Shown here in pieces: positions 23,106 to 24,083 of a DNA stretch of 64,000 bases (position 1 is its first letter; the number at the start of each line of letters is the position of its first letter). Source of the DNA: Asticcacaulis aquaticus (GTDB taxonomy: Bacteria > Pseudomonadota > Alphaproteobacteria > Caulobacterales > Caulobacteraceae); contig NZ_JAQQKX010000016.1 in the NCBI RefSeq assembly GCF_028550415.1, forward strand, positions 1-64,000. Direction: 5' to 3'. The notes under the pieces were generated by a model that was given only the letters and a program-made list of their open reading frames with translations, was not told the origin of the DNA and searched no databases. A program made the position numbers and the translations under genes.

Positions 23106-23229
23106 GAGGTTGTCCCCTGATTTTCGGAAAGACAACCGTAGAGCAAACCCGGCAAAAACAAATTCGCATTTCCGTGAACGGAAAGCTGTAGACGTTTATC
23201 GCCACCTTATTATTTGCGAATAATTCTCA
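23106..23229. other. Intergenic region before the structured RNA
   Basis: AT-rich spacer between the start of the preceding gene and the RNA promoter. No coding frame is supported. It probably contains the promoter of the leftward gene. Confidence 0.3.
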
Positions 23230-23258
23230 TTGACATGACCCGAGCCGTATGGTCTATA
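23230..23258 (+). promoter_or_regulatory. Strong sigma-70-type promoter of the structured RNA
   Basis: A perfect -35 TTGACA (23230-23235), a 17-base spacer and a -10-like TCTATA (23253-23258). A 6-bp inverted repeat AGGGAT (23258-23263) / ATCCCT (23270-23275) spans the expected start point at about 23265. No open frame with a ribosome binding site follows, which points to an RNA gene. Confidence 0.7.
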
Positions 23259-23264
23259 GGGATC

Positions 23265-23593
23265 ACTGTATCCCTTTCGCCTTAGAGATTGTTTGGGAAA
23301 TCAGCGGTTGAGCATCGGCCAGGGATTTTTGCTGATCCGCAAGGCGGAAACGCAGCCGTGATGTGAACATCATGGCAAGTTTCCAACACAGCGGGCAGCA
23401 ATAAAGACCGGACGAGGCGACCCGAAGATTTTCCAAACAGTCTCTTAACCCCTTAAGGCGATCTACCAAGCCGGCAAGAGCTGCGGAATGCCTCCCTCCC
23501 CTTGTCCGCTTACCCTGAGTGGCCTCGTGCCTCTCTTGATTCCTCGGTGCACTTGAAAGGCCTGCTTCCCTCGTGGAGCAGGCCTTCTTTTTT
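23265..23593 (+). ncRNA. Long structured non-coding RNA; 5' part has a 6S-RNA-like rod fold
   Basis: Between a strong promoter and a strong terminator lies about 330 bases with no credible reading frame and extensive self-pairing. A 7-bp helix CGCCTTA (23278-23284) / TAAGGCG (23454-23460) encloses a continuous 17-bp helix (23285-23301 with 23428-23444, two G-U pairs). Inside are two unpaired strands of 28 and 27 bases (23302-23329, 23401-23427). A terminal arm follows: TGCTG/CAGCA, CCGC/GCGG, GGAAAC/GTTTCC, and a 9-bp hairpin with UGAA loop (23355-23376). Closing stem, large central bubble and terminal arm over 183 bases match the layout of 6S RNA. I see no RNase P, tmRNA or SRP RNA signatures. 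The 3' part (23461-23556) is CU-rich. The identity is inference. Confidence 0.6.
23557..23593 (+). terminator. Rho-independent terminator of the structured RNA
   Basis: Perfect 10-bp stem AAGGCCTGCT (23557-23566) / AGCAGGCCTT (23577-23586), loop of 10 bases, then C and six T (23588-23593). Confidence 0.92.
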
Positions 23594-23633
23594 GTTTATC
23601 CCCATTCCCAAAACCTGCGCGCATCATAGGCGC

Positions 23634-24083
23634 ATGTCACAGATCGACCGCACGAAAGAACAGTTCACCCCCGAAGAACGGCGGGCGCGGTTGCGCGCCT
23701 TCGCCGACCGGATGCTGGCCTGTGCGGAAAAGCTGCCCGATCCGGAAACCCTGCCGCAGATCGAACGCGCGGTGCGCATCGGCGGTAGTATCGAACGGTT
23801 ATATGCCCGTGTTGATGCGTCCGAAGCCGCGGCGGCCAAGGCGAAGCTTGAGGTTTATCGGCACACCGAGGCCCTTAAAAGCGCCGAGGCCGAGATCGTG
23901 CGTCAGGTCGAACACACCGCGCTTTGCCAGCGCCGCGAAAGAATGCGCGACGATGAGATGCTGCGCACCGAGCCGAAACTGGCGCGCAAGCTAATCGAAC
24001 AGCGCACCGGGCGTCCGCTGGAAGATTATCTGGCGCAGAGGCAGGCTGAGGTGGAAGTTTTGACTACCGAAGACAGCCCATGA
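23634..24083 (+). CDS. Hypothetical coiled-coil protein (149 aa)
   Basis: A soluble, charged, mostly helical protein. I chose the ATG at 23634, after the RNA terminator, since the open frame further upstream lies in the RNA gene. Heptad-rich segments (RRARLRAFADRMLACAEKL; ASEAAAAKAKLEVYRHTEALKSAEAEIVRQVEH) suggest a coiled coil. A conserved-looking C-terminal motif is KLIEQRTGRPLEDYLAQRQ. There is no signal or membrane segment. No clear ribosome binding site is seen. Function unknown. It is convergent with otsA across a short inverted repeat. Confidence 0.6.
   Translation: MSQIDRTKEQFTPEERRARLRAFADRMLACAEKLPDPETLPQIERAVRIGGSIERLYARVDASEAAAAKAKLEVYRHTEALKSAEAEIVRQVEHTALCQRRERMRDDEMLRTEPKLARKLIEQRTGRPLEDYLAQRQAEVEVLTTEDSP

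Follow-up and report, generated by a model that had tools for sequence, protein, structure and literature searches.

A MITE-like near-palindromic element in the 5' hairpin of a probable Fur-repressed small RNA gene of Asticcacaulis

INTRODUCTION

Small RNAs (sRNAs) of the RyhB, PrrF, NrrF and FsrA class combine a Fur-box-like palindrome on the promoter with a short RNA in which a conserved segment precedes a rho-independent terminator. RyhB, PrrF and NrrF repress their target mRNAs through pairing with ribosome-binding regions. The Asticcacaulis gene described here has the same arrangement but differs from the members of that class in having no Rfam match, in occurring in only 9 of 25 Asticcacaulis genomes and in carrying a miniature inverted-repeat transposable element (MITE) inside it, and its targets are putative.

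For the same bacterial family, excerpts of work on Caulobacter crescentus suppose that "an unidentified iron-responsive sRNA" acts downstream of Fur for some genes and speculate that the CC0682-CC0681 region, which Fur represses, encodes two sRNAs (PMC3751524). An sRNA of about 1 kb, R0117, lies in such a Fur-repressed region (PMC3751524 and PMC6120978, both in excerpt), and the excerpted later study describes iron-responsive sRNAs with no Fur box upstream (PMC6120978). These proposed Fur-linked RNAs resemble ours in that link and in the family, but as excerpted they involve a larger transcript with small proteins and sRNAs that are speculated, a distinction that we draw from their description and not from sequence. 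RusT, the iron-starvation sRNA of C. crescentus, likewise has several stem-loops and a terminator; according to the excerpted account, it is controlled by NtrYX, its promoter showed no Fur consensus, and its gene is located between lolA and xth (PMC11005374). Unlike RusT, the Asticcacaulis sRNA has a Fur-type box and other neighbors. A genus-restricted sRNA with such a box makes the question of the family's iron-responsive sRNA directly testable.

CIR elements of Caulobacter, which are associated by name with the GANTC methylation site, are also intergenic repeats of this family, but GANTC is present in 0 of 11 copies of the element described here, and we rejected that identity. MITEs and Correia elements, as excerpted in PMC10969869, are short and mostly intergenic, have no evident coding role and carry inverted ends and short duplications, all of which fits the Asticcacaulis element. 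It differs from them in covarying as a rod throughout, beyond its ends, and we found no named insertion sequence (IS) with those ends. Among the open-access matches listed, as judged from titles and the first lines of abstracts and with most subscription papers outside that coverage, there was neither an sRNA with a Fur box from Asticcacaulis or any other alphaproteobacterium nor a Fur-controlled sRNA containing a MITE; the MITE-derived sRNAs of Coxiella are the nearest case (PMC10969869, in excerpt).

Here we describe a locus of Asticcacaulis aquaticus that is probably a Fur-repressed sRNA gene whose 5' hairpin received a 160-bp nonautonomous, near-palindromic MITE. The insert here and the uninserted gene in a relative amount to a natural before-and-after experiment on a mobile hairpin in a regulatory RNA.

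RESULTS AND DISCUSSION

A structured region composed of two things

The window, meaning the whole 64,000-nucleotide stretch of A. aquaticus DNA that was analyzed (contig NZ_JAQQKX010000016.1), had previously been examined from its letters, and this sequence-only reading had proposed a noncoding RNA gene with a promoter, a terminator and a rod-like fold. The promoter can be read in the sequence, with TTGACA at 23230 and TCTATA at 23253 separated by a 17-base spacer. A generic promoter scan did not list it, the rule of that scan being a TATAAT-like hexamer. Plausible −10 elements, read by eye, lie at a distance of 17 to 18 bases in the orthologues, with spacers that vary. The terminator is likewise present, as a 12-bp stem (23557-23586) followed by CTTTTTTGTT. 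The fold proved very stable: positions 23278-23462 gave −91.4 kcal/mol (z −10.24, with 0 of 200 shuffles as good), and the predicted transcript (23266-23593) gave a z of −5.85 (0 of 100 shuffles as good). The UGAA loop and the closing helices, of 7 bp and 17 to 18 bp, all appear in it.

What could not be kept was the treatment of the 183 bases as a single domain, because only the 17-bp helix, a terminal inverted repeat, derives from an inserted element, the 7-bp helix being part of a host gene. The sequence does contain a structured region, but one made up of two parts, an inserted element and a small RNA gene (Table 1).

Table 1. Features of the sRNA locus and its insert (positions in the window)
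Feature	Position	Strand	Basis
Fur-box-like palindrome TGCGAATAATTCTCA	23215..23229	+	Abuts −35 hexamer; motif evidence
Promoter TTGACA-N17-TCTATA	23230..23258	+	Sequence
Predicted transcription start	near 23265	+	From promoter TTGACA-N17-TCTATA
Host sRNA first hairpin, 5' arm CGCCTTA	23278..23284	+	CGCTTC-GTCA-GAAGCG at same place in YBE204
First target copy TTA	23282-23284	+	End of host hairpin's 5' arm
MITE-like near-palindromic element, 160 bp, terminal repeats GAGATTGTTTGG..CCAAACAGTCTC	23285..23444	+	Copies, ends, covariation, absence in YBE204 gene
Second target copy TTA	23445..23447	+	Sequence comparison of copies
Host sRNA first hairpin, 3' arm ACCCCTTAAGGCG	23448..23460	+	Sequence, comparison with YBE204
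sRNA body: stem-loops with CCTCCCTCCCC, conserved segment, terminator	23468..23593	+	YBE204 identity, alignments, folds
TCCTCGGTGCACT, proposed base-pairing segment	23541..23553	+	Present in all 8 box-pattern sRNAs
Intrinsic terminator	23557..23593	+	Pair 23559-23584 is G-C in window, A-U in YBE204

The rod is a dispersed, MITE-like element

We searched 41 genomes, including all 25 from Asticcacaulis, with positions 23230-23600 as the nucleotide query. The window genome (G000) gave seven matches, namely, the window itself, five further copies of the rod and an isolated right end of 26 bases that seems to be all that is left of a copy (L019, G000:C5:46346-46371). Its congener Asticcacaulis sp. 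YBE204 (G012) gave six, comprising five copies of the rod and one match to the tail only. When aligned, the 11 full copies from these two species (six from G000 and five from YBE204) are each 158 to 174 bp long and typically start with GAGACTGTTTGG and end with CCAAACAGTCTC. An exact 3-bp target duplication, TTA or TAA in every case, brackets eight of the 11; the other three are L010, L018 and L011, the last with a shortened right end. No two of the 11 copies have 1,200-base flanks in common at an E value of 1e-10, and each copy therefore looks like a separate insertion. A hairpin resembling an intrinsic terminator directly adjoins the element in four copies (L011, L012, L015 and L016), possibly reflecting a target preference.

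A covariance model of the element found six loci in G000, five in YBE204 and none in the remaining 117 of 119 family genomes scanned (16 of the 119 were Asticcacaulis). The opposite strand also matched in 10 of the 11 copies, as expected of a near-palindrome. A terminal-repeat pattern scan of 249 family genomes gave seven sites in G000, six in YBE204 and a lone site in G008. A pattern scan of genome contigs, from which records close to the window's own genome were possibly left out, yielded seven stretches, of which three (YBE204) were true copies and four lacked the element, and plasmids gave no blastn match at an E value of 0.01.

Ten copies were examined for ATG-started frames of at least 100 amino acids: six overlap none, and three (L010, L013 and L018) touch one by 1 to 7 bases. 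In the tenth, a 225-amino-acid frame starts inside the element (L017:1576-2253); either its start has been extended wrongly, or the element now supplies the 5' end of a gene. The window copy has minus-strand frames of 68 and 39 amino acids. The family thus has the features of a MITE, in that its copies are short, dispersed and without coding capacity, they have terminal inverted repeats and target duplications, and a relative retains the empty site of the window copy.

The TNA duplications presumably fit part of the IS5 family, and an IS5-type transposase could have mobilized the element. A search for a parental IS, made with PF01609 as the one family used, gave no hits in G000 and three in YBE204, none of which has these ends. 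We assigned no IS5 group, because an excerpted survey of Paracoccus lists 2- and 4-bp repeats for members of the IS427 group (PMC3281130).

The rod covaries, but not necessarily as RNA

The consensus of the 11 copies, a structure derived from the same 11 sequences, which favors it, has 60 pairs and 98.2% paired cells. Compensatory changes were found among the copies from the two Asticcacaulis species: 18 of the 60 pairs are changed on both sides (17 in a separate count), compared with 5.0 (standard deviation, 1.7) in shuffles, none of which reached 18 in 500, although this control ignores the kinship of the copies and related sequences can exceed shuffles. The covariation score was 0.212, versus 0.104 in shuffles, and sliding the partners out of register left 0 to 7 pairs changed on both sides.

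One copy (L018:1502-1675, corresponding to G012:C3:228960-229133) has an interior like that of the others, but its ends differ and are nevertheless complementary (GAGATAGGGTGG..CCACCCTATCTC), and it has no exact duplication. Either its ends were replaced or this is an extreme case of covariation.

Taken at face value, the excess of paired changes over both controls and the complementary ends of L018 would suit an element that works as a structured RNA and is mobile only incidentally, with the covariation arising from selection on the RNA. We regard that reading as unlikely, given that the copies sit in unrelated sites, that kinship lies outside the shuffle control and that the structure comes from the sequences on which it was scored. 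Moreover, quasi-palindromes corrected by template switching, or DNA hairpins selected during transposition, would also keep their arms complementary. The sequences suggest that the rod is under pressure to stay hairpin-like, whether through selection on RNA or through DNA-hairpin and template-switch effects.

The rod is not 6S RNA

Given its outline, a long rod of about 183 bases with closing helices and its own promoter, the rod had been taken for a possible RNA polymerase-binding homologue of 6S RNA with a 130-base trailing segment. The outline is all that it has in common with 6S RNA. The 6S model (RF00013) has no match at positions 23130-23660, even at E values of up to 10. Most of the supposed central bubble (28 and 27 bases) is paired both in the minimum-energy fold and in the consensus of the 11 copies, where helix 2 (19 pairs) takes up most of the region. 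The rod is, in addition, a repeated element flanked by target duplications, and the orthologous gene lacks it. The 130 trailing bases do exist, but they are the body of the sRNA, and the rod is an insert. Elsewhere in the window genome, RF00013 has a full-length match on the minus strand of contig C9 (L124, G000:C9:183736-183902; 43.8 bits against a cutoff of 46.4; E value, 2.3e-7), with a counterpart in YBE204 that is also below the cutoff (40.3 bits). L124 is likely the true 6S gene of this genome, such that 6S is probably encoded away from the rod locus. Membership of the rod in the 6S family is refuted, and we give a 6S homologue at this position almost no credence.

No Rfam family reaches its cutoff anywhere in the 64-kb window. 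Between 23130 and 23660, the sole matches at E values of up to 10 were to suhB/mmgR on the tail and to the threonine leader on the terminator, the latter on both strands. We rejected mmgR/suhB (RF00519) as well, because its match to the tail scores 18.3 bits against a cutoff of 41; the orthologue loci L068, L060 and L066 gave none at E values of up to 0.5. The sRNA is thus without an Rfam match at this locus and at these three orthologue loci.

The host gene stands without the rod in related species

In YBE204, the orthologous gene stands without the rod and provides the empty site for the window copy. It consists of a Fur-like box, TTGACATG..TCTATAGGG, a small hairpin (CGCTTC-GTCA-GAAGCG), and then the tail and terminator. 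The window counterpart of the small hairpin, CGCCTTAA..TTAAGGCG, is split at TTA by the element, and its arms are what had been read as a 7-bp closing helix. The rod enters about 20 nucleotides past the predicted start, and the element would extend the predicted sRNA from about 166 to 329 nucleotides.

The proposal of a noncoding RNA gene gains support, as the gene without the rod is conserved in eight other species. A covariance model of the sRNA (R2), whose consensus structure implausibly pairs the −35 element with the conserved segment and which was used for searching alone, found it in 9 of 249 family genomes, all of them among the 25 Asticcacaulis genomes. The 224 family genomes outside Asticcacaulis gave no match, nor did 16 of the 25 within the genus, under filters that lose weak matches. 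The copy that carries the insert is the sole one found in G000. Weak nucleotide hits were obtained in six other genomes (L003 to L008; E values, 1.6e-4 to 0.005): L005 (G005) and L007 (G016) are the sRNA, and inspection of L003, L004, L006 and L008 found no such gene. The conserved segment itself occurs in 13 of 199 genomes of the family, 9 times as the sRNA and 4 times (G015, G180, G048 and G108) in other, apparently coding sequence.

Seven orthologues could be delimited and extend 112 to 154 nucleotides from the predicted start (the limits of L064 were set by hand), and the six that were folded show stem-loops, the conserved segment and the terminator. In the folds of the window and YBE204 RNAs, GGUGCA of the conserved segment pairs with the 5' end, and the segment may therefore not be free there. 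The conserved segment and terminator that characterize a Fur-repressed sRNA are accordingly present, the segment being partly paired in these two folds.

Whether the sRNA survived the insertion is a separate issue. The inserted gene is the only copy found in its genome, and with the insert, a hairpin of −81.9 kcal/mol, the transcript becomes twice as long; such a hairpin could stall transcription or mark the RNA for decay, and the strain would then have lost the sRNA. We consider such a loss of function a real rival, if the less likely outcome, as the promoter, the box, UCCUCGGUGCACU and the terminator are intact and the tail is 95% identical to that of YBE204 (query positions 237-363 of 23230-23600). 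Furthermore, one terminator pair (23559-23584) differs on both sides, being G-C in the window and A-U in YBE204, and the predicted fold of the body is alike with and without the element, the split hairpin excepted.

A Fur-like box marks the promoter

In the 64-kb window, no site other than the palindrome abutting the −35 hexamer comes within three mismatches of TGAGAATNATTCTCA, the Fur consensus as we entered it for the scan; the palindrome departs from it at one position. An exact match to AATNATTCTCATTGAC occurs 12 times in the 25 Asticcacaulis genomes: 8 sites (in 8 genomes) lie on the −35 element of the sRNA, and 4 (in 4 genomes) precede a DUF4198-type gene. All eight sRNAs found through the box carry UCCUCGGUGCACU, and a search with UCCUCGGUGCACU found a ninth carrier (G011), in which the box has one changed base. 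Because the box search finds the segment and the segment search finds the box, their co-occurrence does not result from having selected one by the other. As a motif, then, a Fur box is present on the promoter in exact form in eight carriers and with one base changed in the ninth.

The DUF4198-type gene (L061, L062, L063 and L070) has two Fur-like sites upstream, one of them identical to the sRNA box; the assignment rests on a Pfam match of L061, which the other three genes resemble. The protein that follows it has what we take to be EF-hand-like motifs.

A Fur protein is encoded (130 bits), but each of the four genomes examined also encodes a second, weaker FUR-family protein, and the palindrome might serve another regulator, such as a Zur- or Mur-type paralogue, in which case the sRNA would not be under Fur control. 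This seems improbable to us, as the box has the Fur-type 7-1-7 form and recurs ahead of the DUF4198-type gene, where a second Fur-like site accompanies it. The sRNA is most likely repressed by Fur and RyhB-like in its action, and, judging by its promoter, the gene looks as if it is switched on by iron shortage.

A model for the inserted gene and its putative targets

Our preferred explanation, a Fur-repressed sRNA gene with a MITE in its 5' hairpin, would work as follows. With iron present, Fur bound to the box against the −35 element would keep the gene silent. When iron is short, transcription would run from about 23265 to 23593, and the conserved UCCUCGGUGCACU, perhaps along with the CCUCCCC segment, would repress target mRNAs by pairing with their ribosome-binding regions. 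The element would add a long hairpin near the 5' end, as the 5' domain of a 329-nucleotide RNA. RNase III would naturally take its 18-bp terminal helix as a substrate, and cleavage there could free an sRNA close to the ancestral length. Such processing suggests a way in which the insert could be tolerated, since RNase III cuts the terminal repeats of Correia-element transcripts (PMC10969869, in excerpt). More tentatively, and with somewhat less confidence than we give to loss of the sRNA, the transposon-derived rod may be a structurally selected RNA hairpin that was built in as a new 5' domain and now determines how stable a Fur-controlled sRNA is, how it is processed or how Hfq gains access to it, which would be a direct case of MITE domestication.

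We compared the pairing of sdhC leaders with that of shuffles from our own routine (100 shuffles per leader). In six of nine genomes pairing was no better than in shuffles (z −0.8 to +1.1), it was weak in G005 (z −1.6), and it reached a z of −3.2 in G000 and −3.3 in YBE204 through long-range pairing. CACCGGG, present in eight of the nine sdhC leaders, could pair over 7 bases, a match that we estimate to be common by chance. A pattern linking the seed to ribosome-binding sites gave 20 hits in six genomes, versus 9 for the reversed control pattern, and these 20 hits included no iron-related or ribosome-site target common to the genomes. Three of them (L107, L108 and L118) are one gene, which we take to be pnp, with the site inside the coding frame.
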